In this document: positions 39,517-55,054 of the stretch, in pieces
How positions within the stretch are numbered: position 1 is the first letter of the stretch
How the letters are laid out: each line of letters starts with the position of its first letter
Position numbers and translations under genes: made by a program
Source: Cognatundibacterium oligocarboniphilum
GTDB taxonomy: Bacteria > Pseudomonadota > Gammaproteobacteria > Burkholderiales > Burkholderiaceae_D
DNA: 64,000 nt
NCBI RefSeq assembly: GCF_013377855.1
Contig: NZ_JABXYJ010000003.1
Span: 197,259-261,258 of the forward strand
Direction of reading: 5' to 3'
Notes under the pieces: generated by a model
Told to the model about the DNA's origin: nothing
Databases searched by the model: none
The model's input: only the letters and a program-made list of their open reading frames with translations

Positions 39517-39596
39517 TATACTCCCCTTCAGTATATAAAAATGCCCTGATTTTTTCTTAATTTCAGGGCATTTTGATTAAAAACGCAGGGGAGTAT
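39517..39596. repeat. Compound palindromic intergenic element, copy A
   Basis: It starts with a perfect 19-bp dyad, TATACT-CCCCTTC-AGTATA (39517-39535). Next is a 12-bp stem, AAAATGCCCTGA with TCAGGGCATTTT, which should terminate both converging genes. ATACTCCCCT at the left (39518-39527) is mirrored by AGGGGAGTAT at the right (39587-39596). The first 45 bases closely resemble copy B at 53962. Confidence 0.7.
39537..39574. terminator. Bidirectional terminator between marR and the RND operon
   Basis: AAAATGCCCTGA and TCAGGGCATTTT form a long stem with a T-rich loop of about 13 bases, between converging genes and inside the compound repeat. Confidence 0.75.
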
Positions 39597-39600
39597 CTGT

Positions 39601-42600
39601 TTACAACGCATCTCCGACTATCGGACCGCTGCCGCTGAAACGATCCAGCGCCAGGTAAATCACCGGTGTAATGAACAGCGTGATCGCCTGCGAGAAAATC
39701 AGCCCGCCCACCACCGCCAGACCCAGCGGCTGACGCAATTCAGCACCGGCACCCAGTCCCAGTGCAATCGGCAAAGCACCGACCAGCGCTGCCAGCGTAG
39801 TCATCATAATCGGCCGGAAGCGCTGAATACATGCTTCCCGGATCGCCTCTGCCGGTGTCATGTTGTGATGGCGCTGCGCGTCCAGCGCGAAGTCAATCAT
39901 CATGATCGCGTTCTTTTTCACGATACCGATCAGCAGCAAAATACCAATGGTGGCAATCAGGGTCAGGTCTTCGCCAAACCACTTCAGCGTCAGCAACGCA
40001 CCCACTGCCGCCGACGGCAAGCCTGCCAGAATGGTAATCGGATGAATATAACTTTCATACAAAACACCCAGCAGCACATAGATCACCAGTAATGCGGCCA
40101 CAATCAGTACCACCTGTCCGGACTGGGTGTCCTTGAACACCGCAGCATCGCCGCCGTAAGAGGTGATAATCGATGCCGGCATTTTCAATTCGTCGCGATA
40201 CTGTTCAATGCGTCTGGTCGCGTCGCCCAACGCCGTGCCTTGCGACAGATTGAATGACACTGTTACTGCCTGCAACTGGCCAACATGATTAATCGACGTC
40301 GGGCCGACGGTGCGCCTGACCGTGGCAACACTCGACAACGGCACCAGGGTGCCGGTATTACTACGCAGGTAAATACCGTTAATCGCACTTTCGTCTGCTT
40401 TTGCCTCGGGACCGACTTCCATGATGACCTGATAGCTGTCGACATTGGTGTACATGGTCGATATCTGACGCTCGCCGAACGCGCTGTACAAAGCCGAACG
40501 GATGGCGTCCATGCCGACACCGAGCGTATTGGCGCGATCACGGTCAATCTCTACCGAAGCCTGCAAGCCTTTGAGCTGAGAATCTGTGGTCACGTCTTTA
40601 AAGCCATTGTCATTGCGCAGCTTTTCCTGCAATTTGCCGGCCCAGTCACTCAGTTCACTGGCTTCGACACTCTGCAAAATATACTGATACTGGCTTTTGC
40701 TCTGACGACCACCCAGCTGCAGGTTCTGCGTCGGACGCAGGAACACATTGATGCCGGGAATCTGCGCCAGTTTCTTGCGCAAGCCATCCACGACATCCTT
40801 CATCGGTTTGCGTTCATTACGCGGCTTCAGATTCACAAACATCCGGCCCGTATTCTGCGAACCGCTGCCGCCATTGAAAGAAGCAACGGTCAGCACGTTA
40901 GGGTCGTCACGGATAATTTTGGCCGCTTTGTCCTGCAATATCAGCATGGCGGGGAAAGACACATCTTCCGCCGCTTCCGTCGTGACGTTGATCTGTCCGA
41001 TATCTTCTTGCGGGAAAAATCCTTTAGGAATCGTTCTGAACAGATAGGCCGTTGCGATAAAAGTCAGTAAAGCAATCAGCAGCACCATCCGGCGATGGCG
41101 CAGCGCCAGATCCAGGCTGCGGGTATAAGCGCGCAACGAAGCAGTAAAGGCGTTTTCAAAACCATGCAATATCCATGCGGCCCATTTGGGCGGCTCGGAA
41201 AGCTCATGCTCGCTTTTCAGAAAGCGGCTCGCCAGCATCGGGACCAGCGTCAGCGACACGAATGCCGACGCCAGAATTGCCAGGCTGACGATCACCGCAA
41301 ATTCATGGAACAGCTGGCCAATCACCCCCGGCATGAAAAAAATCGGAATAAAGACCGCCACCAGCGAAGTGGAAATCGAGATGATGGTAAAACCCACCTC
41401 GCGCGACCCCTGCAGCGCCGCTTTAAACGGCGGCTCGCCGTTTTCAACGTGCCGCATGATATTTTCCAGCATCACGATCGCATCATCCACCACCAGCCCC
41501 ACCGCCAGCGTCAGTCCGAGCAGGGAAATATTGTCCAGCGTATAGCCGAAGCCCCACAGGAGACTGATTGCACCGACCAGCGAAACCGGCAAGGACAAGG
41601 TCGGGATCACCGTCGCAGTCACGCGCCGCAGGAACAGGAAAATCACTACCACCACCAAAAATATCGTCAGCAACAGGGTCAGGTTCACGTCATGCAAAGC
41701 ATCACGCACCGACACAGAACGGTCATTTACCAGCCCGATTTTGACCGAAGCGGGCAATTGCGCCTGAAAGCCCGGCAAGGCTGCTTTGATCGAGTCCACT
41801 ACCTTCACGGTATTGGCATCCGTCTGACGCTGGATACCTAAGGTGATTGAGCTTTCGCCGTTGTAATTCGAGGCTGACTTGACCTGTTCATAACTGTCTT
41901 CCACGACCGCCACATCGCGTAACCGGACCACCAGTCCACCTTTATTCCCAACCACCAGATCGGCAAACTGGCTGGCATTGAGCAACTGCCGGTTCGCCAG
42001 AATCGTCAGAGTCTGCTTGTCGCCATCGAGCGTGCCGACCGGGGTATTGGCATTGGCATTGCGGATGCTGGCAGCCAGCTCATCGAGCGTCATATTACGC
42101 AGCGCCAGCTCCTGCGGCTTGACCCGGATGCGGACAGCATAACGCTTGATACCGTAAATATTGACCTGCGCCACACCATCAAGAGTGGATAAACTGGGAG
42201 AAATCAGATGTTCCGCATAGCTGGTCAGTTCAGACAGGGTCATCGACGGCGACCTCAGCGACAGCACCAGCACCGGCGCATCAGCCGGATTCACTTTCCG
42301 GTACGACGGCGGCGAAGTCATATCCACCGGCAAGGAACGCTGCGCACGCAGCAAAGCCGCCTGCACATCCACTGCAGCAACGTCAATATTCCGGTTCTGG
42401 TCAAATTCCAGCGTCAGCGAGGTATTGCCTATCGTATTGCTGGAACTGATGACCGACAGACCGGGAATGGTGGCGAACTGCTTTTCCAGCGGCAGCGCCA
42501 CCGATGTTGCCATTGTTTCGGGACTCGCACCTGGCAGATTGGCATTCACACTGATGACGGGCGTGTTGTAGCTCGGCAAAGCGGCGACCGGAATAAAGCG

Positions 42601-42687
42601 GTAAGCCAGTACGCCGGCCAGCACCACCGACAGATTCAGCAATACCGTCATCACCGGACGGCGGATAAACAGCTCGGATAAATTCAT
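39601..42687 (-). CDS. RND efflux pump inner-membrane transporter (HAE1/MdtC-like)
   Basis: A 1028-residue transporter that expels hydrophobic compounds with the proton gradient. It has the twelve-helix RND layout with two large periplasmic loops, the proton-relay acidic pair in GLVVDDAIVMLENIMRH, and the C-terminal LIGIVKKNAIMMIDFAL motif. The N-terminus MNLSELFIRRPVMTVLL is typical of the MdtB/MdtC/MuxBC group. Its start overlaps the adaptor gene by four bases. No outer-membrane channel gene is adjacent. Confidence 0.92.
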   Translation of the reverse strand: MNLSELFIRRPVMTVLLNLSVVLAGVLAYRFIPVAALPSYNTPVISVNANLPGASPETMATSVALPLEKQFATIPGLSVISSSNTIGNTSLTLEFDQNRNIDVAAVDVQAALLRAQRSLPVDMTSPPSYRKVNPADAPVLVLSLRSPSMTLSELTSYAEHLISPSLSTLDGVAQVNIYGIKRYAVRIRVKPQELALRNMTLDELAASIRNANANTPVGTLDGDKQTLTILANRQLLNASQFADLVVGNKGGLVVRLRDVAVVEDSYEQVKSASNYNGESSITLGIQRQTDANTVKVVDSIKAALPGFQAQLPASVKIGLVNDRSVSVRDALHDVNLTLLLTIFLVVVVIFLFLRRVTATVIPTLSLPVSLVGAISLLWGFGYTLDNISLLGLTLAVGLVVDDAIVMLENIMRHVENGEPPFKAALQGSREVGFTIISISTSLVAVFIPIFFMPGVIGQLFHEFAVIVSLAILASAFVSLTLVPMLASRFLKSEHELSEPPKWAAWILHGFENAFTASLRAYTRSLDLALRHRRMVLLIALLTFIATAYLFRTIPKGFFPQEDIGQINVTTEAAEDVSFPAMLILQDKAAKIIRDDPNVLTVASFNGGSGSQNTGRMFVNLKPRNERKPMKDVVDGLRKKLAQIPGINVFLRPTQNLQLGGRQSKSQYQYILQSVEASELSDWAGKLQEKLRNDNGFKDVTTDSQLKGLQASVEIDRDRANTLGVGMDAIRSALYSAFGERQISTMYTNVDSYQVIMEVGPEAKADESAINGIYLRSNTGTLVPLSSVATVRRTVGPTSINHVGQLQAVTVSFNLSQGTALGDATRRIEQYRDELKMPASIITSYGGDAAVFKDTQSGQVVLIVAALLVIYVLLGVLYESYIHPITILAGLPSAAVGALLTLKWFGEDLTLIATIGILLLIGIVKKNAIMMIDFALDAQRHHNMTPAEAIREACIQRFRPIMMTTLAALVGALPIALGLGAGAELRQPLGLAVVGGLIFSQAITLFITPVIYLALDRFSGSGPIVGDAL

Positions 42688-43940
42688 GATGCACTCGCTG
42701 CCGAAGCGGATTTTTCTGCCGGTTTTTCCTGACTGCCCGCACCATCCTGGCGATTTGCAGCGGCTTTTGCGCTGCTGTCCTTCGCCTCATTGTCGCGCTG
42801 TTTCACCACGGCGCCCGGACGCAGATTCTGTTTACCATCAAGGACAATTCTGGTACCTGCCGCGATACCTGTCACCACGGCATCCGTTCCAAAACTCTGG
42901 GTCACCACAACCGGTCTGAGTTCGGCCTTTCCTTCTGCAGTGACGGCATAGACCGATTTACCACGTGCGCCGACAATGATCGCATCCTGCGGTACCACCA
43001 CGGCATCCTTGAGTGTCTGCACACTGAGTTCGACAGTGACATAAGCCCCCGGCCATAATTTCATTTCCTTATTATCGAAAATCGCTTTGACCTTGACCGT
43101 TCCGGAAGCGGCATCCACCGCATTATCGACAAACTGCAATTTCCCTTTGAACTGCGTGACGCCATCCGGCAATCTGGCCGTGACGTAGCTGTCCGTGCGA
43201 CGCATACTTTCCAGCGCATCCGGCAAATTCCGCTGCGGCAAGGGGAACATGATCGCAATCGGATCAATCTGAGTGATCGTCACCAGTGCCGGCGTAGTGG
43301 CGCTTGGCTGCACCAGCGAACCCGGATAAACACTGATGATGCCGGTACGGCCGGCAGACGGCGCTACAATCCGGTCATAACTCAGTGCAACTTTGGCGGC
43401 GACCACCGCTGCCCTATCCGAAGCCACCACTGCCGCCTGGGCATCCACCGCCGCCTGGCTGGTGTCGAGCGCACTCTGCGCCACGAATTTTTTAGCCACC
43501 AGTTCTTTGCTACGCACCAACTGGCGCTGGTAATCAGCCAATGTGGCGAGGTCCTTATCCAATTGAGCCTGAGCTTTTGCCAGATTCACCTCGTCAGCGC
43601 GACTATCCAGCGTGAACAATAATTCACCGGCCTTCACAAACTGACCCTCACGGATATGCACTTTGCTGACAGTGCTGGTCACCTGCGGCCGGATATCCAC
43701 GGTATTCAAAGCCGACACCGTACCATTGGCAGAAATTCTGACCGGATAATCGCGCTGTTGCGCCAATACCGTTGACACGCTGACGGGATGCGCCGAAGGA
43801 TCCCCGTTTTTTCCGGCAGCAGCACTGGCAGATGCGCCAGCGTCAGCCTTGTTCTGAGTTGAAGAGGCGGCAAAATACCAGGCGCCGCCGGCAAGCGCGG
43901 CAATCACGGCGACGATAGTCAGTGTTTTGAATTGGCTCAT
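42684..43940 (-). CDS. RND periplasmic adaptor protein (MdtA-like membrane-fusion protein)
   Basis: The 418-residue adaptor links the RND pump to an outer-membrane channel. It has an N-terminal membrane anchor or signal (about residues 8-26), a lipoyl domain (ISANGTVSALNTVDIRPQV), a coiled-coil hairpin, and the beta-barrel region (RTGIISVYPGSLVQP). The tail after residue 380 is charged and low-complexity (Lys/Ala/Ser). AAGGA lies about ten bases before ATG 43940. It is first in the two-gene operon. Confidence 0.9.
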   Translation of the reverse strand: MSQFKTLTIVAVIAALAGGAWYFAASSTQNKADAGASASAAAGKNGDPSAHPVSVSTVLAQQRDYPVRISANGTVSALNTVDIRPQVTSTVSKVHIREGQFVKAGELLFTLDSRADEVNLAKAQAQLDKDLATLADYQRQLVRSKELVAKKFVAQSALDTSQAAVDAQAAVVASDRAAVVAAKVALSYDRIVAPSAGRTGIISVYPGSLVQPSATTPALVTITQIDPIAIMFPLPQRNLPDALESMRRTDSYVTARLPDGVTQFKGKLQFVDNAVDAASGTVKVKAIFDNKEMKLWPGAYVTVELSVQTLKDAVVVPQDAIIVGARGKSVYAVTAEGKAELRPVVVTQSFGTDAVVTGIAAGTRIVLDGKQNLRPGAVVKQRDNEAKDSSAKAAANRQDGAGSQEKPAEKSASAASAS

Positions 43941-44261
43941 GTTGTTTTTATCCTTTGCAGATGCTTTCAGACTGGCGCAGGACGAGAAAGTTCGGAGGAA
44001 TTTGTTGATAAATGCGGAGAAAACGTATCAAATCAATGCATAAAGTACGAAATTGAAACAGCCTGCTGCTCAGGCCGGACAGGCTTTATCTGCTGTCATA
44101 TAGTAAAACAAGGTAGCAACACCAAAGATGAAAATTTTACCCGGTCAGCGGCAAGCGCCTATGCTACCAAAGAGAAAGCCAGCATTCATGCTGGCTTTCT
44201 CTGCCGATACCTTACGTTACACCAAAGTCAGGTAGCGGAATGTCTGATGCTGGTGCCAGGT
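43941..44261. other. Region between the RND adaptor gene and secF
   Basis: About 320 bases with no supported gene. Positions 43941-44170 should contain the promoter of the RND operon on the minus strand, though no box stands out. The secF terminator fills 44171-44202. A long plus-strand frame that starts here reads through secF on the opposite strand and is not credible. Confidence 0.5.
44171..44202. terminator. Terminator after secF
   Basis: A perfect 15-bp inverted repeat, AGAGAAAGCCAGCAT with ATGCTGGCTTTCTCT, separated by two bases. It lies 59 bases after the secF stop on the minus strand. Confidence 0.75.
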
Positions 44262-45200
44262 TCAGACGACGGCACCATCGGTATCGTCCTTTTCCTTGAC
44301 CGGTTTGATCAGGTCTTCGCGCGTCACACCGAGCCACATCGCAATCGCGGCAGCCACGAATACCGACGAGTAAATACCGAAACAGATACCAATCGTCAGC
44401 GCTACTGCAAAATAGTGCAATGTCGGCCCACCGATCAGCAACATCGACAGCACCATCATCTGGGTGCAACCGTGGGTAATGATCGTGCGGGAAATCGTGC
44501 TGGTAATCGCGTTATCAATTACTTCTTTCACGCTCATCTTGCGCTGCTTACGGAAGTTTTCACGGATACGGTCAAAAATAACCACCGACTCATTCACCGA
44601 ATACCCCAGTACAGCCAGCACCGCCGCCAGTACCGAGAGATTGAATTCCCATTGAAAGAAAGCGAAGAAACCGAGAATAATCACCACGTCATGCAAGTTC
44701 GCGACAATCGCTGCAATTGCAAACTTCCATTCAAACCGGATCGCCAGATAAATCACTACGCCTAATACCACAAACAGCAAAGCCATCAGGCCGTCATGCG
44801 CCAGTTCGTCACCCACCTGGGCGCCAACCTGCTCAACACGCTGCTGACGGACTTCCGGGTCTTTGGCCTGCAACGCCTGCATCACCTGGGTTGCCTGATC
44901 TGCTGCGGTCATGGTCTTTGACAGCGGCAAGCGGATCACCACATCCTGCGCCTTACCAAAAGTCTGCACCGGTGCATCGGTGTACCCCAGTCCTTCCACG
45001 GTGCGGCGGATTGCATCTACGTCGGCAGCTTTCGGATAGGTGACTTCCATCACGGTACCACCGGTAAACTCAACTGAAAAATGCAGCCCCTTGTGCAGCA
45101 GGAAAAACACTGCCGCCACAAAAGTCAGCGCCGAAATGACATTGAAAATCAGCGCATGGCGCATGAAAGGAATGTCTTTTTTAATGCGGAATAATTCCAT
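44262..45200 (-). CDS. secF: Protein translocase subunit SecF
   Basis: SecF works with SecD to drive protein export across the inner membrane using the proton gradient. The 312-residue protein has six membrane helices and the SecD/SecF signatures FSVEFTGGTVMEV and YSVNESVVIFDRIRENFRK. It follows secD by 34 bases and closes the queA-tgt-yajC-secD-secF block. Confidence 0.96.
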   Translation of the reverse strand: MELFRIKKDIPFMRHALIFNVISALTFVAAVFFLLHKGLHFSVEFTGGTVMEVTYPKAADVDAIRRTVEGLGYTDAPVQTFGKAQDVVIRLPLSKTMTAADQATQVMQALQAKDPEVRQQRVEQVGAQVGDELAHDGLMALLFVVLGVVIYLAIRFEWKFAIAAIVANLHDVVIILGFFAFFQWEFNLSVLAAVLAVLGYSVNESVVIFDRIRENFRKQRKMSVKEVIDNAITSTISRTIITHGCTQMMVLSMLLIGGPTLHYFAVALTIGICFGIYSSVFVAAAIAMWLGVTREDLIKPVKEKDDTDGAVV

Positions 45201-45234
45201 AATAGATTCCTGAATCCTTATCTTGACAACGCGG

Positions 45235-47124
45235 TCACTGCTTTACATCAGTCTGTGCATCTGCTGCAGGCTTCCAGATCTGTCCGATGGAAATCGAGGC
45301 CAGCTTTTTCTGACGGCCGTACCAGAAATTCACCACACCGCGCGAAACAAACACCGATGAAAAAATCGAAGTCAGAATCCCGAGGCAATGCACCACCGCG
45401 AAACCGCGGATCGCACCGGAGCCGAAAATCAGCAACGCCAGGCCGACAATCAGCGTGGTCACGTTGGAATCGAGAATCGTTGCCCAGGCATGGGTAAAGC
45501 CTTCTTCAATCGCTTTTTGCGGAGACTTCCCGCTGCGCAGTTCTTCACGGATACGCTCGTTAATGAGTACGTTGGCATCAATCGCCATGCCGAGTGCCAG
45601 CGCAATCGCGGCAATTCCCGGCAAAGTCAGCGTCGCCTGCAACAGCGACAGGATCGCCACCAACAGCAACAGATTCACAGACAAAGCCAGCACACTGAAG
45701 AAACCGAACATCAGGTAATAAATCACCATGAAAATCGAAATCGCGGCAAAACCGTATAGTGTGGAATTACGTCCCTGCTTGATGTTTTCAACCCCCAGCT
45801 GCGGACCAATGGTGCGCTCTTCAATGATTTCCATTGGTGCGGCCAGCGAGCCGGCACGCAGCAGCAAGGCCAGATCGGAGGCAGCCGTCGTGGACCCCAT
45901 GCCGGTAATGCGGAAGCGGGAGCCTAACTCATCCTGAATGGTTGCCACGGTCAAAACTTCGCCCTTGCCTTTTTCAAACAAGACAATCGCCATCTTCTTA
46001 CCGATCTTATTACGGGTCGCCTCACGCATCTTGCGTCCACCATCGCCGTTCAGATCAATACTGACCGCAGGTTGCTGATGCTCATCAAAACTGGCCGATG
46101 CGCCGGCAATATAATCGCCGGTAATCACAGGCTCTTTATACAAAATCGCAGGAGCGCCACGACCGACCTTGAACAGTTCGGAACCAAAAGGAACCGGAGT
46201 GCTTTCATCCACCTGGCCGATCACAGACTCGTCCGACAGGCGCACTTCCAGTGTCGCGGTGCGACCAATGATTTCCTTGGCGCGCGCCACATCCTGCACA
46301 CCCGGCAGCTGCACCACGATACGATCAGGCCCCTGTTGCTGGATGATCGGTTCAGCCACACCCAGCTCGTTGACACGCTTCGACAGCGCGGTAATATTCT
46401 GCTTCACGCCTTCGGTAATAACCGCTTTCAGCGATTCCGGTTTCAGGCTGACCTGCAGGTTGAATTCAGTGTTATCCGTGCTTGCCACATCCGTCAGGTT
46501 GACATCACTCATTTGTGACGACAGCACGTTTCTTGCGACATTGCGTGTTTCCGCTTCACGGAAACGGACGGTGATCGCGTCACCATCGCGGCTGATGCCG
46601 GCATGACGCACATCTTTTTCGCGCAAAGCAGAACGAATCGAAGATTGTAATCCCTGCACCCGCTTTTGCATCACTGCCTTGGTATCCACCTGCATCAGAA
46701 AATGCACGCCGCCGCGCAGATCCAGCCCCAGATACATCGGCAGCGCATTCATGCTCTGCAGCCACTTCGGTGTATTCGACAACAGATTAAAAGCGACGGT
46801 GTAGGTTGGATCAGCAGGGTCGGTATTCAGTGCTTTTTCCAGCACATCTTTCGCCTTGAACTGGGTATCCGTATCCACGAAACGTGCCCGCACGGAACCT
46901 TGCATCCCATTGAAATCATAAAAAATACCGCTGTCTTTCAAACCTGCCTGCTGCAAGGTCTGTTCGACGCGGGTTTTCATGCTTTCATCAATTTTGACTG
47001 TCGATTTGGCGCTGCTGATCTGCACTGCCGGCGACTCGCCGAAGAAATTCGGCGCGGTGTAGAGTCCGCCGAATATCAGTGCAATCAAAATCAGCAAATA
47101 CTTCCAGAGTGGATAGCGATTCAT
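45235..47124 (-). CDS. secD: Protein translocase subunit SecD
   Basis: SecD has a large periplasmic domain and six membrane helices and aids late steps of secretion. The 629-residue protein has the LGLDLRGGVHFLMQVD signature after the first helix, and GIAAIALALGMAIDANVLINERIREE in the membrane domain. Length is standard. It lies 78 bases after yajC, separated by an 11-bp hairpin that may tune expression. Confidence 0.96.
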   Translation of the reverse strand: MNRYPLWKYLLILIALIFGGLYTAPNFFGESPAVQISSAKSTVKIDESMKTRVEQTLQQAGLKDSGIFYDFNGMQGSVRARFVDTDTQFKAKDVLEKALNTDPADPTYTVAFNLLSNTPKWLQSMNALPMYLGLDLRGGVHFLMQVDTKAVMQKRVQGLQSSIRSALREKDVRHAGISRDGDAITVRFREAETRNVARNVLSSQMSDVNLTDVASTDNTEFNLQVSLKPESLKAVITEGVKQNITALSKRVNELGVAEPIIQQQGPDRIVVQLPGVQDVARAKEIIGRTATLEVRLSDESVIGQVDESTPVPFGSELFKVGRGAPAILYKEPVITGDYIAGASASFDEHQQPAVSIDLNGDGGRKMREATRNKIGKKMAIVLFEKGKGEVLTVATIQDELGSRFRITGMGSTTAASDLALLLRAGSLAAPMEIIEERTIGPQLGVENIKQGRNSTLYGFAAISIFMVIYYLMFGFFSVLALSVNLLLLVAILSLLQATLTLPGIAAIALALGMAIDANVLINERIREELRSGKSPQKAIEEGFTHAWATILDSNVTTLIVGLALLIFGSGAIRGFAVVHCLGILTSIFSSVFVSRGVVNFWYGRQKKLASISIGQIWKPAADAQTDVKQ

Positions 47125-47156
47125 AATAAAAAAAGAAATTGGAAGCTCAAAAGAAC

Positions 47157-47187
47157 AACGCAGTCCAGTTCATCTGTGGACTGCGTT
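47157..47187 (-). promoter_or_regulatory. Hairpin between yajC and secD
   Basis: AACGCAGTCCA (47157-47167) pairs with TGGACTGCGTT (47177-47187) around a 9-base loop. On the minus strand it is followed by a loosely T-rich stretch, so it may act as a partial terminator or mRNA-stability element between the two genes. Confidence 0.5.
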
Positions 47188-47202
47188 GCCGGTATATGCC
47201 GA

Positions 47203-47526
47203 TTAAATCGCTTTAATGGTGCCTTTCGGCAGCAGTGCGGTAATGGCCACTTTCTGCACCACGAGTTCGGTGCCCTCAGCCACTTCCAGCGTCACGTAGC
47301 TTTCGCTGACTTTCGTGACCTTACCCAGCACACCACCGGCAGTCACGACTTCATCGTTTTTCGCCAGCGCATCCATCATGGATTTCTGTTCTTTCTGACG
47401 CTTCATCTGAGGACGGATCATCAGGAAGTACAACACCACAAACATCAGTACCAATGGCAGAAAGCTCATCAGACCACCGTCAGCGCCGATTCCGGCCGAT
47501 TGCGCATAAGCGTTGGAAATAAACAC
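47203..47526 (-). CDS. yajC: Sec translocon accessory protein YajC
   Basis: YajC is a small inner-membrane protein that associates with SecDF. The 107-residue protein has one hydrophobic helix (about residues 18-37, SFLPLVLMFVVLYFLMIRPQ) followed by the conserved KRQKEQKSMMDALAKNDEVVTAGG. It starts at GTG 47526, with CGGAG well placed upstream. It sits between tgt and secD as in most proteobacteria. Confidence 0.93.
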   Translation of the reverse strand: MFISNAYAQSAGIGADGGLMSFLPLVLMFVVLYFLMIRPQMKRQKEQKSMMDALAKNDEVVTAGGVLGKVTKVSESYVTLEVAEGTELVVQKVAITALLPKGTIKAI

Positions 47527-47693
47527 GTTACAGACTCCGTTGTAATATTAATTTGACCAGTGCGCAGATTGGCATCAGGTAGAACTGTCAAACCTGCAAC
47601 ACTGACTTCAGCAAATGGTGATTCAAAATCACATTTCAACTGGCAAAGCGTCACATTCTAGCATTGACGCCAGGGCAATTGGCGATTCTGCGT

Positions 47694-48836
<1,143 letters not shown>

Positions 48837-49027
48837 TCATGCATCTCATGGATGCACATTCATCTTCAGGGCTGACGCGAAATTGTCCTGACCGGTGAAG
48901 CGCCGCCAACCGCACCTCATTACCGTGAAGCGGGGCAACCATGCCAGGGGGATGTTGCATCAGTCCTTAACGTATTAATTTTCTGACTGTAACAGCATCC
49001 GGTTCACGCCGGATAGCGGATATCGCC

Positions 49028-50071
49028 TTATTTTTTTCCTGACTGATTTGTCAGCAGCATGGCGTCACCGTAACTAAAGAAACGGTAACGTTGTGCAACG
49101 GCATGCGCATAAGCGAGGCGGATCGGCGCATAGCCGGCAAATGCCGACACCAGCATCATCAGCGTGGATTTCGGCAGGTGGAAATTGGTAATGAGCCGGT
49201 CCACGGTTTTAAATACATAACCCGGAGTGATGAATAATCGGGTATCTGCACTGCCAGCTTCCAGCTGTCCGCTCTGCGATGCCGATTCCAGCGCGCGCAT
49301 ACTGGTGGTGCCGACCGCAATCACGCTACCGCCGCTGACCTTGACCTGCCGGATCAGCGCCACGGTCTCTTCCGGCACGGTATACCATTCGCTGTGCATT
49401 ACATGCTCGCTCAGGTTTTCCACCCGCACCGGCTGGAAAGTACCGGCACCGACATGCAACGTCACATAAGCCAGTTGAATTCCTTTATCACGACAACGCT
49501 GTAACAGCGCCTCATCAAAATGCAACCCCGCAGTCGGCGCCGCCACTGCGCCCGGCACCCGGCTGTAAACCGTCTGATAACGCTGTTCATCAAAATCATC
49601 GGCATCATGTTCGATGTAAGGCGGCAACGGCAGGCGGCCATAACGTTCCAGCAGAGAAAATACATCCTCCGGAAAAAACAGCGTAAAAAACTCGCCCTCG
49701 CGCTCCCCGACAATCACATCAAATGCGTCAGCCAACCGGATCCGGCTGCCGGGCAAAGGCGATTTGGAAGCACGCATCTGCACCAGCACGCGACGGTCCT
49801 GTTCCGTATTCGAGACAATCCGCTCCACCAGCATCTGCACTTTGCCGCCGGTTTCCTTCACCCCGTGAAAACGTGCTTTCAAAACCCGCGTATCATTAAA
49901 AACCAGCACATCCCCCGCCGACAACTGATCCAGCACATCGGTAAAATGCCGGTCAATCAGCTGGTCGCCATCCACATGCAACAGGCGCGACGCAGTGCGG
50001 TCAGGCAAAGGCGTCTGAGCAATCAGCGCATCAGGCAATTCAAAATCAAAGTCACTCAGAGAATAATTCAT
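49028..50071 (-). CDS. queA: tRNA preQ1(34) S-adenosylmethionine ribosyltransferase-isomerase
   Basis: QueA transfers the ribosyl group of SAM to preQ1 in tRNA, giving epoxyqueuosine, the step after Tgt. The 347-residue protein has the N-terminal [19 protein letters not shown]-like start and the conserved [24 protein letters not shown] and [12 protein letters not shown] segments. It is divergent from recG and precedes tgt on the same strand. Confidence 0.95.
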
Positions 50072-50193
50072 ACACGGAAAGTGGGGAAAAACAGAACAAA
50101 ATGCTGCGCACTGTATAAAAAATCAGTAAAATACATCTCAACCCAGTGTTACCTGACGGCCAGACTAACAGCAAAACCCACCATTTTACACTC

Positions 50194-52347
50194 ATGGCAG
50201 CTGAAGACCCAAGCGTGCATTCCGCCACTCCTCCCGCTCAGGCAAACGCGGCTGGTCAACGCCAGCGTAAAAAACCGCAGACACCGTCCGCCAGAAAGAC
50301 TTCCACCGCATCAAGCGCGAGCCAGACCAGCAAAATCAGCGACAAGCTGGCACGGCTCGGATTGCGTACGGATATGGATTTTTTGTTGCATCTGCCGATG
50401 CGTTATGAAGATGAAACCCAGGTGCTTGGTATCCGCGAAGCAGCGTTGCGCGGCGGCAGCCAGGTACAGATCGAAGGCAAAGTGCTCAGCGCGGATGTGC
50501 AATACAGGCCGCGCCGCCAGTTGATCGTCACCATCGCCGATGACAGCGGCCAGGCGACACTGCGGTTCCTGAATTTTTACGGCAGCCAGCTCAAACAATT
50601 CTCTGCCGGTGCGAGGGTCCGTGCCCGTGGCGAGCTGCGGCATGGTTTTGCCGGACCGGAAATCGTTCATCCGTCTTATAAAATGGTGACCCAGGGCGCT
50701 CCCCTGCCAACCGCACTGACACCGGTCTACCACACCGCTGAAGGTATTTCGCAACCCTTGCTGCGCAAAGCGATTGCCAGCGCAATAATGCGCAGCGAAT
50801 GGCGCGATACGCTATCTCCTGCGCGCCTCGCAGCACTCGGACTGCAGGGCTTTGAAGCCAGCGTCCGGCTGTTGCACAATCCACCGCCGGAAGCCGACCA
50901 GTACAGTTTATTGGAAAGACATCATCCCGCCTGGCAAAGGATGAAATTCGATGAACTGCTGGCACAGCAGCTGTCACTGAAACGGGCCCAGCAAACACGC
51001 CGTCGTCAGGGCGCCAGCGCATTGCCGCTGGTGGGTGAACTCAGCAATGCTTTTTTGCTGACATTGCCATTCTCACTCACCAGAGCACAGGAAAAAGTAT
51101 TGGCCGAGATTCGTCACGACCTGCGACAGACCTTTCCTATGCAAAGATTGTTGCAGGGTGACGTCGGCAGCGGAAAAACCATCGTGGCGGCATTGGCGGC
51201 GGCGCAGGCAATCGATAATGGCTTTCAGGCGGCACTGATGGCACCGACCGAAATTCTGGCGGAACAGCATTTCCGGAAAATTGCCGCCTGGCTCGAACCA
51301 CTGGGCATACGCACCGTCTGGCTCACCGGCAGCCTGAAGAAAAAAGACAAAGAGCAGGCCAGCGCCCAGATTGCCAACGGCGAAGCGCAGCTGATCATCG
51401 GCACCCACGCATTGATTCAGGACAGCGTTCAGTTTAAAAAACTAGGCTTGGTGATTGTCGACGAGCAGCATCGCTTCGGCGTTGGTCAGCGTCTGAATCT
51501 GGCCAACAAGGCCGAAGCGGGAAAAATACCGCATCAGCTGATGATGTCCGCCACACCGATACCCCGCACGCTGGCGATGACTTATTTTGCCGATCTGGAA
51601 GTATCAGTGATTGACGAGCTGCCACCGGGACGCACACCAGTGCTGACCAGGGTGATTGACCAGCAGCGGCGCGATGAAGTCATCGTCCGGGTACACGCGG
51701 CAGCACTGGAGGGACGGCAGGTTTACTGGGTCTGCCCGCTGATTGAGGAATCCGAAGCTCTGCAATTACAAACCGCCACCGATACCCACGCGATGTTATC
51801 TGCAGCCCTGCCCGACGTCCGGATAGCACTGGTGCACGGTCGTCTGAAACCCGCCCAGAAGCAGGCTGTGATGGAAGATTTCAGCAGGCAACAGACTCAG
51901 GTGCTGGTCGCCACCACGGTCATCGAAGTCGGGGTGGACGTTCCAAACGCCAGCCTGATGGTGATTGAACATGCGGAACGTTTCGGCCTGTCGCAGCTGC
52001 ACCAGTTGCGCGGCCGGGTCGGCCGTGGCGCCGCGGCCAGCATCTGCCTGCTGCTGTACCAGAGCCCCTTGGGTGGTACTGCCAGACAACGACTGGCAAT
52101 CATGCGCGAGAGTAACGATGGTTTTGACATCGCCCGCAAAGACCTGGAGCTGCGCGGCCCCGGCGAATTTCTGGGGGCGCGCCAGTCCGGTGAGGCGCTG
52201 CTCCGCTTTGCCGATCTGGAAACCGACCAGCCGCTGGTGGAAAAAGCCCGCAATCTGGCGGAAGAACTGTTGCGGGATGATCCTGTCACTGTTGCCGCCC
52301 ATCTGCATCGCTGGATGGGGAACAAAGAAGAATTTCTCCGGGTCTGA
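50194..52347 (+). CDS. recG: ATP-dependent DNA helicase RecG
   Basis: RecG remodels stalled replication forks and Holliday junctions. The 717-residue protein has a low-complexity Ser/Thr/Pro-rich N-terminal tail (about 50 residues) and a wedge/OB domain. The helicase core follows, with Walker A GDVGSGKTIVAAL, the DEQHRFGVGQR box and late GRVGRGAAASICLLL. I chose ATG 50194; the frame runs back to 50146. It is divergent from queA. Confidence 0.95.
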   Translation: MAAEDPSVHSATPPAQANAAGQRQRKKPQTPSARKTSTASSASQTSKISDKLARLGLRTDMDFLLHLPMRYEDETQVLGIREAALRGGSQVQIEGKVLSADVQYRPRRQLIVTIADDSGQATLRFLNFYGSQLKQFSAGARVRARGELRHGFAGPEIVHPSYKMVTQGAPLPTALTPVYHTAEGISQPLLRKAIASAIMRSEWRDTLSPARLAALGLQGFEASVRLLHNPPPEADQYSLLERHHPAWQRMKFDELLAQQLSLKRAQQTRRRQGASALPLVGELSNAFLLTLPFSLTRAQEKVLAEIRHDLRQTFPMQRLLQGDVGSGKTIVAALAAAQAIDNGFQAALMAPTEILAEQHFRKIAAWLEPLGIRTVWLTGSLKKKDKEQASAQIANGEAQLIIGTHALIQDSVQFKKLGLVIVDEQHRFGVGQRLNLANKAEAGKIPHQLMMSATPIPRTLAMTYFADLEVSVIDELPPGRTPVLTRVIDQQRRDEVIVRVHAAALEGRQVYWVCPLIEESEALQLQTATDTHAMLSAALPDVRIALVHGRLKPAQKQAVMEDFSRQQTQVLVATTVIEVGVDVPNASLMVIEHAERFGLSQLHQLRGRVGRGAAASICLLLYQSPLGGTARQRLAIMRESNDGFDIARKDLELRGPGEFLGARQSGEALLRFADLETDQPLVEKARNLAEELLRDDPVTVAAHLHRWMGNKEEFLRV

Positions 52348-52419
52348 GCATATTATCCCGCTCGTACCCCGCATCCGCCCTGCGGTGCCAGTCATCTCAT
52401 TTTTTAACAGGATTTTTCG

Positions 52420-52902
52420 ATGCTGACCTTTCTCAAAGCCGACCTCCACAATGACCGGCATGCCAGTGACCTGCTGAATCAGCTTAACAGCTATGCGCTC
52501 GACCCGATGGGTGGCGGCGAGACGCTCTCACCTTATTGCCGCCAGCATCTGATTTCCGAATTACAGCAGCGGGAACACACCGTGCACGCTTTCCTGCTGT
52601 ATCAGGATCAGGTAGCGGCGGCATTCTCAATCTGCATCGAAGGTTTTTCCACCTTTGCCTGCAAACCACTGCTGAATATTCATGATTTTGCAGTCCATCC
52701 TGATTTCCGAGGACAGCAGCTCGGCAAACATCTGATGAGCCAGATCAGCCAATACGCAGAACAGCATGGCTTCTGCAAACTGACGCTGGAAGTGTTGGAG
52801 GGCAATCATCCGGCACAGGCACTGTACCGTTCTCAGGGCTTTGCCGGCTACGAACTGAATCCGGCAATGGGGGGCGCCATCGTGATGCAGAAAAAATTCT
52901 GA
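52420..52902 (+). CDS. GNAT-family N-acetyltransferase
   Basis: A 160-residue acetyltransferase with the acetyl-CoA loop VHPDFRGQQLGKHLM and a C-terminal LEVLEGNHPAQALYRSQGFAGYEL. The substrate cannot be told from sequence. It lies 72 bases after recG and may be read from its transcript. Confidence 0.85.
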   Translation: MLTFLKADLHNDRHASDLLNQLNSYALDPMGGGETLSPYCRQHLISELQQREHTVHAFLLYQDQVAAAFSICIEGFSTFACKPLLNIHDFAVHPDFRGQQLGKHLMSQISQYAEQHGFCKLTLEVLEGNHPAQALYRSQGFAGYELNPAMGGAIVMQKKF

Positions 52903-52997
52903 ACCAGATCGCCCGAATCTGAATACACCCTCCAGTCATCACAGGTTAGAATCAGCAGCACTTTACCTGCTGCATTAACTTCGATAAGGATGACAAC

Positions 52998-53912
52998 ATG
53001 AGCTTAGATTTCAAAGGCCGCGTAGCGATTGTAACTGGCGCCGGTGGCGGTCTGGGGCGCGAACACGCACTGGCGCTGGCTGCGCGCGGCGCCAGAGTAG
53101 TGGTGAATGATCTCGGCAGCGCGACCGATGGCTCTGGCGGCTCCTCCGCCGCCGCATTGGCTGTGGTCGAGGAAATCCGGGCAGCCGGTGGCGAAGCGAT
53201 CGCCAATGGTGCTTCCGTGACAGATTTTGCAGCCGTGCAGACAATGGTGACAGATGCCATGGCAACCTGGGGCAGAGTCGATATCCTGGTCAACAATGCC
53301 GGCATTCTGCGCGACAAGAGTTTCGCCAAAATGGAAATCGATGATTTCCGCCTCGTGATTGATGTGCATCTGATGGGCGCGGTGCATTGCTGCAAAGCGG
53401 TCTGGCCGGTGATGATGGAACAAAAATACGGTCGTATCGTGATGACGACCTCCTCCTCTGGGCTATACGGTAACTTCGGTCAGTCGAATTACGGCGCTGC
53501 CAAACTGGCGCTGGTCGGCCTGATGCAAACGCTGGCGCTGGAAGGCGCAAAATACGACATCCGCGTCAACAGCCTGGCACCAACCGCAGCCACCCGCATG
53601 ACTGAAAGCCTGTTCCCGGCAGAATTCCTGCAGGCACTGAAACCGGCAGACGTCGTGCCTGCCATGCTGGTCCTGGCAGCAGAAAATGCGCCAAGCCGCG
53701 CTATCCTGTGTGCCGGCGCAGGCAGCTTTGAGGCCGCCCATATCACCCTGACGCAAGGCATCTGGGTCGGACGCGGCAACGATACCCCGGAACAGCTGGC
53801 GGCACGGCTGGCTGAAGTCAGACAGCGCGATGGCGAAAACGTGCCGGATAGCGGCGCAGCACAGGGACATCTGGAACTGACAAAAGCGATGTCCCAGCTA
53901 CAGAAAAACTGA
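52998..53912 (+). CDS. Short-chain dehydrogenase, 3-hydroxyacyl-CoA dehydrogenase-like
   Basis: A 304-residue SDR with the NAD-binding TGAGGGLG (13-20), the NNAG motif (99-102) and the catalytic Ser152, Tyr165 and Lys169. It resembles the dehydrogenase part of the eukaryotic peroxisomal multifunctional enzyme 2, including the VVVNDLGSATDGSGGSS insert after the first strand. A C-terminal extension of about 60 residues follows the core. This suggests a role on 3-hydroxyacyl-CoA. No other beta-oxidation gene is adjacent. It ends at a terminator. Confidence 0.82.
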   Translation: MSLDFKGRVAIVTGAGGGLGREHALALAARGARVVVNDLGSATDGSGGSSAAALAVVEEIRAAGGEAIANGASVTDFAAVQTMVTDAMATWGRVDILVNNAGILRDKSFAKMEIDDFRLVIDVHLMGAVHCCKAVWPVMMEQKYGRIVMTTSSSGLYGNFGQSNYGAAKLALVGLMQTLALEGAKYDIRVNSLAPTAATRMTESLFPAEFLQALKPADVVPAMLVLAAENAPSRAILCAGAGSFEAAHITLTQGIWVGRGNDTPEQLAARLAEVRQRDGENVPDSGAAQGHLELTKAMSQLQKN

Positions 53913-53927
53913 GTTTGACCCGATACT

Positions 53928-53956
53928 CTCCAGCTTGCCAAAAAGACAAGCTGGAG
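53928..53956 (+). terminator. Terminator after the short-chain dehydrogenase gene
   Basis: CTCCAGCTTG pairs with CAAGCTGGAG around a 9-base loop, followed by AATTTTAT. It lies 15 bases after the stop codon. Confidence 0.75.
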
Positions 53957-53961
53957 AATTT

Positions 53962-54038
53962 TATACTCCCTCTCAGTATGTGCAAAAATCAGCCTGATAT
54001 TATTGAAAATCAAGGTCAAGAAAATATACTCCCCTCTT
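53962..54038. repeat. Palindromic intergenic element, copy B, in front of oxyR
   Basis: It starts with the dyad ATACT-CCCTCTC-AGTAT (53963-53979), then AAAAAT and CCTGAT blocks aligned with copy A at 39517. A second TATACTCCCCT occurs at 54025-54035 in the same orientation. It lies within the 150 bases before the oxyR start, so it could also act as an operator. Confidence 0.65.
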
Positions 54039-54109
54039 TTCCTGCATCCTGACAGGATGTTTTAAAACAGACTGCTGACGTCAGCGCCAGTCTGTGCCAC
54101 ACTAAGCGC

Positions 54110-55054
54110 ATGACCCTCACCGAATTAAAATATATCGTCGCCGTCGCGCGCGAAAAGCACTTCGGCCATGCCGCAGAGGCCTGTTTTGTCGCGCAGCCGA
54201 CGCTGTCGGTTGCCATTAAAAAACTCGAAGATGAGTTAGGCGTCACCATTTTTGAACGGGGCGGCAGTGAAGTATCCACCACCCCGCTGGGTGCGCAGAT
54301 TGTCGCTCAGGCTGAACGTGTGCTGGAACAGACCGCTGCCATCAAGGAAATTGCCAAGCAGAATAAAGATCCGCTGGCCGGCTCTTTCCGCCTCGGTGTG
54401 ATCTATACGATCGGCCCTTATCTGCTGCCGGTACTGGTCAAGACCATGATTCAGCAGGTGCCGCAAATGCCATTGGTGTTGCAGGAAAATTTCACGGTCA
54501 AGCTGATTGAGCTGTTGCGCCAGGGTGAATTGGATGCTGCAATCATGGCGCTGCCCCTGCCTGATCAGGGGATGATGGTGCAACCGCTTTATGACGAACC
54601 CTTTGTCGTCGCCATGCCGCGGCAACATCCGTGGGCTGATCGTGACAGCATCCCCGCCGCTGAGTTGAAATCGGAAACCATGCTCTTACTTGGTAACGGA
54701 CACTGCTTCCGCGATCAGGTGCTGGAAGTCTGTCCGGAAATGGCACGCTTTTCAACATCCGGCGATGGCATTGCCCGTACATTTGAAGGATCTTCACTGG
54801 AAACCATACGTCATATGGTCGCCTCCGGTATTGGTCTGACTGTGCTGCCGGTCGCCTCCATACCGGATATGCATGCGCAGGATGGCATGCTGCGTTACGT
54901 GCCGTTTGAATCGCCGGCACCGGAACGGCGCGTCGTCATTGCATGGCGCAAGAGCTTCACCCGCCAGGCGGCGATTGAAGCGATCCGGAAAGCGGTGCTG
55001 GCCTGCCACCTGCCGGGAGTCACCATGCTGGACGAAGCGCCTGGCGCACAATAA
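54110..55054 (+). CDS. oxyR: Hydrogen peroxide-inducible regulator OxyR
   Basis: OxyR is a LysR-type regulator switched on by a disulfide. The 314-residue protein has the N-terminal winged helix (MTLTELKYIVAVAREKHFG). The two redox cysteines sit at exactly 199 and 208, in GHCFRDQVLEVC. Targets elsewhere in the window are probably ahpC-ahpF and perhaps bfr. recG upstream and ubiA downstream are the usual neighbours; here extra genes sit in between. Confidence 0.95.
   Translation: MTLTELKYIVAVAREKHFGHAAEACFVAQPTLSVAIKKLEDELGVTIFERGGSEVSTTPLGAQIVAQAERVLEQTAAIKEIAKQNKDPLAGSFRLGVIYTIGPYLLPVLVKTMIQQVPQMPLVLQENFTVKLIELLRQGELDAAIMALPLPDQGMMVQPLYDEPFVVAMPRQHPWADRDSIPAAELKSETMLLLGNGHCFRDQVLEVCPEMARFSTSGDGIARTFEGSSLETIRHMVASGIGLTVLPVASIPDMHAQDGMLRYVPFESPAPERRVVIAWRKSFTRQAAIEAIRKAVLACHLPGVTMLDEAPGAQ

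Follow-up and report, generated by a model that had tools for sequence, protein, structure and literature searches.

Proteins of the CsoR/RcnR family are local repressors that control one or few operons, and RcnR of E. coli reportedly wraps DNA. The RcnR operator is described as TACT-G6-N-AGTA, and the operators of type 1 as having a spacing of 6-9 (PMC7055735, PMC3902906). Short palindromes spread over the whole chromosome and served by one dedicated protein are described for Noc (∼70 sites) and SlmA (24-52 sites) (PMC4726725). The present analysis deals with a dispersed palindromic element, of which two copies, A and B, lie in a stretch of 64,000 nucleotides from Cognatundibacterium oligocarboniphilum (contig NZ_JABXYJ010000003.1, positions 197,259 to 261,258; hereafter the window). 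The element forms a family with a two-site anatomy, is conserved at orthologous places, carries an operator-like motif, and is associated with a divergent CsoR/RcnR-family protein, called type II, whose own promoter carries the same dyad. On balance, a complete copy is likely to be a paired CsoR-type protein-binding element, dispersed, most probably bound by type II, with a role that would be chromosome-wide.

Copies A and B, both given on the + strand, consist of one full palindrome (site 1), an intervening stretch and one half of a second palindrome (site 2). As seen in the letters, site 1 of copy A lies at 39518-39534 (ATACTCCCCTTCAGTAT, arms ATACT and AGTAT around the spacer CCCCTTC) and is followed by an AT-rich stretch of 45 bp (39535-39579; register 44-48) and by the 17-bp register of site 2 (39580-39596), in which the right half alone is present (GGGGAGTAT at 39588-39596). 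Site 1 of copy B, equally visible in the letters at 53963-53979 (ATACTCCCTCTCAGTAT, spacer CCCTCTC), is separated by 46 bp (53980-54025) from the 17-bp register of its site 2 (54026-54042), which holds the left half alone (ATACTCCCC at 54026-54034). The preliminary description of this DNA had reported a TACT-N7-AGTA dyad at both places, and the dyad is real: ATACT-N6/7-AGTAT has exactly two matches in the window, copies A and B, against a mean of 0.05 in 100 shuffles, none of which reached two; in a looser and weaker 15-mer test with 3 mismatches, two matches were reached by 9 of 100 shuffles. The spans given there extend to the half-palindromic site ∼46 bp on, but that site was left undescribed, and in copy B its register runs to 54042. 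The 7-bp spacer holds for A and B, whereas 6 or 7 bp occur across the family. The AAAAAT and CCTGAT blocks mentioned in the same description do occur in both copies, but they are weak evidence because their offsets from the palindrome differ between A and B and the surrounding stretch drifts freely.

In the genome to which the window belongs (G000; 3.67 Mb in 34 contigs), the pattern ATACTCCYNNNNAGTAT (ATACTCCY-N4-AGTAT) gave 48 matches, 23 forward and 25 reverse, with none in the reversed-pattern control. They fall on 46 distinct exact places, which bears out the dispersed family proposed earlier. When a spacer of 6 or 7 bp was allowed, 75 matches were recorded, with one in the control. The pattern requires CCC or CCT beside an arm, and all these counts refer to copies that have either. 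In a scan of named genomes a longer palindrome recurs, among the matches listed, in Undibacterium species; of the 36 Undibacterium genomes screened with the pattern, 14 yielded ∼10 to >100 matches per chromosome.

In 40 of the 46 loci the palindrome is accompanied on one side by a second motif, GGGAGTAT or ATACTCCC. When ∼150 bp on both sides were searched, all 40 half-motifs fell in a 17-bp register 44-48 bp past the palindrome (at 45 or 46 in 34 cases). The register is also present in 56/57 fetched loci of U. griseum FT31W (G029), 19/20 of U. aquatile (G033) and 29/30 of genome G014, for which the search covered distances of 43-48. The centre-to-centre distance of the two sites is ∼63 bp, equal to six DNA turns. 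Two orientation classes are apparent: in the GGGAGTAT class the ends of the element are inverted repeats, while class 2 has its second motif in direct orientation, and copies A and B represent one of each. The spacer occurs with its CCC side towards the tail or away from it, and CCC or GGG can stand at one arm or at both.

The flanks allowed 43 of the 46 exact sites to be compared with U. griseum, and 3 were left unresolved. Site 1 is exact in 38 of the 43, exact with a spacer one base shorter (6 bp) in 4, and changed in 1, namely copy B, which has one substitution in the right arm in U. griseum; without constraint, 7-22% of site 1 would be expected intact (from a flank divergence of 12-15% or a tail divergence of 19.5%). 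As the U. griseum loci were mostly picked by exact match, this retention rests on the unresolved loci being few (3). The half-site was not used in picking the loci, and it is intact in 37/38 orthologues against an expectation of 18-36%. The DNA between the sites shows 340 substitutions in 1745 positions (19.5%) and the flanks, which are partly coding, 1026 in 7600; fewer indel events separate the two genomes between the sites than in flanks of the same length (7/1897 vs 42/3794, P = 0.0035). Within the spacer, CCC is mostly kept and the remaining four bases differ at 49/152 positions. As read from these alignments, selection holds two putative protein sites at near-fixed spacing, and two sequence-specific sites at a near-fixed distance with free DNA between them form the pattern that a protein complex would demand. 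Searching the genome and its relatives thus revealed further copies, with the dyad kept at orthologous sites of U. griseum. The earlier argument that a position between converging genes speaks for a mere repeat finds no support, because the sites are under strong purifying selection.

The element resembles the RcnR-class type 1 operator, as far as the cited sources describe it, in its TACT/AGTA inverted repeat, its spacing of 6-7, the G/C bases beside an arm and the tandem arrangement of two sites. It differs in occurring in tens of copies, in the position of A and B away from CsoR-family genes, in the reduction of the second site to a half-site, and in a partial G/C tract (CCC and four free bases, or, in G014, CCY and an often AT-rich remainder). 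The element thus appears to work like a type 1 CsoR/RcnR operator, and it is not called a canonical one because the unbroken G/C tract of the spacer is missing. The titles and abstract openings covered by a literature search contained no such chromosome-wide sites for the CsoR/RcnR family. With Noc/SlmA (PMC4726725) and MatP/matS (PMC3330122), as outlined in those papers, the element shares tens of scattered short palindromic sites, and differs in the protein family and the two-site architecture. Under-representation near the terminus, a trait of sites of the Noc/SlmA type, does not reach significance in G014.

At least three kinds of PF02583 protein occur in Undibacterium. Type II, a divergent CsoR/RcnR-family protein of 104 aa, is encoded in G000 on contig C29 (59306-59617), outside the window. 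It matches PF02583 with 62.4 bits (cut-off 22.8), and its profile is matched by solved chains of CsoR, InrS and, weakly, FrmR. The metal-site (XYZ) residues of the CsoR family are given as Cys35, His60 and His64 (PMC5016687); in type II, Cys50 and His79, at the positions of Cys35 and His64, are invariant in 11/11 rows, and the His60 position is replaced. A distant type II relative in G003 is also without the Cys. By these comparisons type II is placed in the fold family without being called a metal sensor.

The type II promoter carries ATACT-N6/7-AGTAT, mostly near -66, with exact arms in 21/25 Undibacterium loci and in 23/25 when one change is allowed. In many species a ATACTCCC half-site lies downstream of the promoter dyad, within the first codons of type II (for DTPP; GATACTCCCCCA in G000, L291), and dyad and half-site together resemble a dispersed two-site element in which the gap is longer. 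A 23-bp form of the same palindrome was also found ∼20-50 bp before a CsoR-family open reading frame (ORF) in Acinetobacter nosocomialis, Herbaspirillum robiniae and Pandoraea anapnoica, i.e. in 3/3 loci for which ORFs were listed; the Acinetobacter protein, the sole one of the three run against Pfam, scored 86.7 bits. These loci come from a scan that returned at least 110 stretches, of which 38 loci were viewed and some (Blautia, Chloroflexi) may be chance matches. They lend partial support to the earlier proposal that the dyads are operators of a shared regulator of the RcnR class. Type I, a canonical protein resembling FrmR/RcnR and present once in G000, was dropped as the main binder because its own promoter motif in G000 is different and four site-bearing genomes (G006, G013, G015, G020) have type II as their only PF02583 match. 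The third kind is present in G017 and G021.

The occurrence of the sites is associated with that of type II, although the association is confounded by descent. Among the 36 Undibacterium genomes (G000-G035), with presence of type II defined as >170 bits and the G003 relative (91 bits) counted as without, type II is present in 21, of which 18 have at least one match and 14 have nine or more, whereas none of the 15 without it has any (Fisher P = 2.9e-7, in a test that ignores descent, with 4 of the 15 only 65-73% complete).

The location of the sites was analysed with a simple codon-usage gene finder on 47 sites of G000 and 57 of U. griseum, against a background of 139 site-free intergenic gaps; a single gene finder for sites and background gives the same counts. 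All 104 classed sites are intergenic. Convergent gaps are over-represented (27/104 vs 15/139, P = 0.003) and divergent gaps under-represented (11/104 vs 36/139, P = 0.003), with P values of 0.08 and 0.07, respectively, for G000 alone, the two genomes sharing most sites. In codirectional gaps of G000, 22/31 copies are closer to the 3' end of the preceding gene than to the start of the following one. In G014, where the origin and terminus were located by GC skew of 20 samples, 9 of 51 sites lie in the terminus quarter (P = 0.26) and 15 in the origin quarter (P = 0.52), and neither bias is significant. Regular spacing is also not significant, either in G014 (gap variation of 0.82 vs 0.97 in random sets, P = 0.09) or in two U. 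aquatile contigs (P = 0.06 and 0.32).

Several observations weigh against a chromosome-wide element read by type II. Apart from the higher P values in G000 alone, the choice of U. griseum loci by exact match, and the neglect of descent and incomplete genomes in the Fisher test, a quick RecG tree of 41/43 genomes shows type II changing at least 5 times with only 3 well-supported independent pairs, which on average are concordant in 1.8 cases, discordant in 0 and without difference in 1.2; a sign test gives no significance. (In G013 the homologue of recG, L439, G013:C1:3528292-3530353, consists of two adjoining pieces in separate open frames, possibly a frameshift or a sequencing error.) Type II is present without any 7-bp match in three genomes, G004 (with 3 matches once 6-bp spacers are allowed), G019 and G021; G018, G026, G031 and G034 have 1-3 matches, and the single match of G031 equals its control. 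In other genera of the family, 36 genomes have type II at >100 bits, and of the 35 pattern-searched, 2 carry matches (G441 with 28 and G399 with 2), while one or two matches occur in 14/297 genomes of the order outside the genus. Type II is thus not sufficient for dispersed sites. Moreover, the spacer in most type II promoters resembles CAGTAG and lacks the CCC that marks the dispersed sites. Finally, the tails share a weak, lineage-specific consensus (41-62% identity vs 27-29% shuffled), which two protein sites alone do not explain and which, together with an inverted repeat in the G014 tails, suggests that whole elements were copied at some time.

Genome G441 is the sole bearer of matches among the seven type II relatives in its genus, and one of the matches lies directly upstream of its type II gene. 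It was rejected as a clean second case, the matches being mostly within long GC-rich open frames with tails absent; because they are mostly coding and without tails, G441 was used solely for its type II promoter. The 17-bp palindrome is repeated in this genome (L310-L329; ATACTCCTGGGGAGTAT several times), mostly inside long open frames.

In the favoured reading, each complete copy would be a protein-binding element that combines one full type-1-like CsoR/RcnR operator with a half-operator ∼63 bp away on the same DNA face. Type II is the most likely binder: a tetramer would occupy the full site, the half-site would provide a second contact or take a second tetramer, and the intervening 46 bp of AT-rich DNA may be wrapped or bent, as is said of RcnR of E. 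coli. The main role would be chromosome-wide, in DNA architecture or as a barrier between transcription units and not in the switching of ∼50 promoters; we infer this because the copies are scarce in divergent gaps and show a preference for convergent gaps and 3' ends. The elements thus probably serve DNA architecture or the boundaries of transcription units.

A classical regulon, in which type II or some other regulator uses the elements as operators to control the genes next to them (at B, for instance, the LysR-type gene), would account for the strong conservation, for the position of copy B before the LysR-type gene at 54110 and for the palindromes that adjoin CsoR-family ORFs in the loci from Acinetobacter, Pandoraea and Herbaspirillum; yet it is unlikely, since divergent gaps are depleted and convergent ones enriched, 22 of the 31 codirectional copies of G000 lie nearer to the 3' end of the upstream gene, and copy A is placed between two gene ends. 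The same two-site element might instead be read by a different protein, e.g. a recombinase or a factor of the nucleoid-occlusion type, with type II correlated by descent only. The clade-structured presence of type II and the unlike spacer of its promoter agree with such a reader, which is nevertheless rather doubtful, as the arms are identical to those of the type II promoter dyad and the one genome with matches among seven type II relatives, G441, has one of them just upstream of the type II start. Site-specific recombination with an invertible 7-bp overlap was considered, because of the two directions of the CCC side, and rejected as unsupported, since the orthologous pairs that were read show base drift and, by eye, no clear inversion, and since CCC or GGG can stand at either arm or at both.

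A selfish or domesticated mobile repeat of the MITE/REP-like kind, carrying the palindrome at its ends, would fit a dispersed and intergenic family with inverted-repeat ends in the GGGAGTAT class and with tails whose weak consensus varies from lineage to lineage. None of 16 comparisons revealed a clean 80-bp empty site (10/26 queries had no counterpart): 13 could be aligned without interruption, in most of them with the spacer shorter by one base, and 3 show larger indels. Furthermore, the second motif of class 2 is direct and not inverted, and the ends are kept at orthologous places while the inside drifts, a pattern opposite to the decay of dead insertions, all of which makes a mobile repeat improbable. 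REP/BIME and RAYT-linked repeats, as presented in the cited papers (PMC3733652, PMC3116915), are likewise short, dispersed, extragenic and palindromic, but the present elements are constrained at the arms of the protein sites with a drifting interior; a GTAG/CGTC tag was not seen by eye in the consensus or the listed copies, no dedicated search having been run. A segment of ∼340 bp that includes an element is present in U. griseum (L063, region of G029:C10:222771) and absent from G000 (L261), with 9 shared bases at its borders. Most improbable are RNA hairpins or bidirectional terminators at gene ends: the sites do lie near 3' ends, copy A has a terminator-like stem, and tail covariation reaches a best z of 5.3 in G014; against this, Rfam gave nothing in the window at gathering scores, the best of many helices reaches z of only 2.8, 3.3 and 2.9 in G000, G029 and G033, spacer bases drift, and the CCC side is not tied to the tail. 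RNA structure was therefore rejected, with Rfam empty and the pairing signals weak except in G014, and the conserved RNA folding considered earlier finds nothing beyond these signals. The elements of G014 (L350-L379) contain an internal tail repeat, TTGTCCA..TGGACAA, with covariation at z of about 5, which is not seen as such in the tails of G000.

The terminator that the preliminary description assigned to copy A is present as a stem read from the letters (GCCCTGA/TCAGGGC, 39543-39569) that, with its T-run, spans 39543-39574 on the + strand, but most other G000 tails show, by eye, no such stem, so it is not a family feature. Copy A sits between two gene ends. The gene downstream of copy B, at 54110, is of the LysR type (oxyR being the name given to it earlier). 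Between the SDR gene (52998-53912) and copy B, a perfect 10-bp inverted repeat, CTCCAGCTTG/CAAGCTGGAG, followed by TTTT (53928-53962), forms a terminator-like hairpin. By Pfam, the neighbours of the two copies are MarR, RND transporter, SDR and LysR genes, with no CsoR-family gene adjoining.

As a tentative extension of the reading in which type II binds the paired sites, a CsoR-family protein whose metal site is partly lost may now act as a chromosome organiser, with ∼10 to >100 paired sites, ∼80 bp wrapped at each, mostly at gene ends and marking boundaries. If this is true, it would show how a small sensor can become a protein that binds DNA all over the genome, at dozens of sites which are under selection and lie for the most part away from divergent promoters. 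One protein of 104 residues, one defined 80-bp element, and related species with and without them would also provide a simple natural system for asking what scattered intergenic palindromes do.

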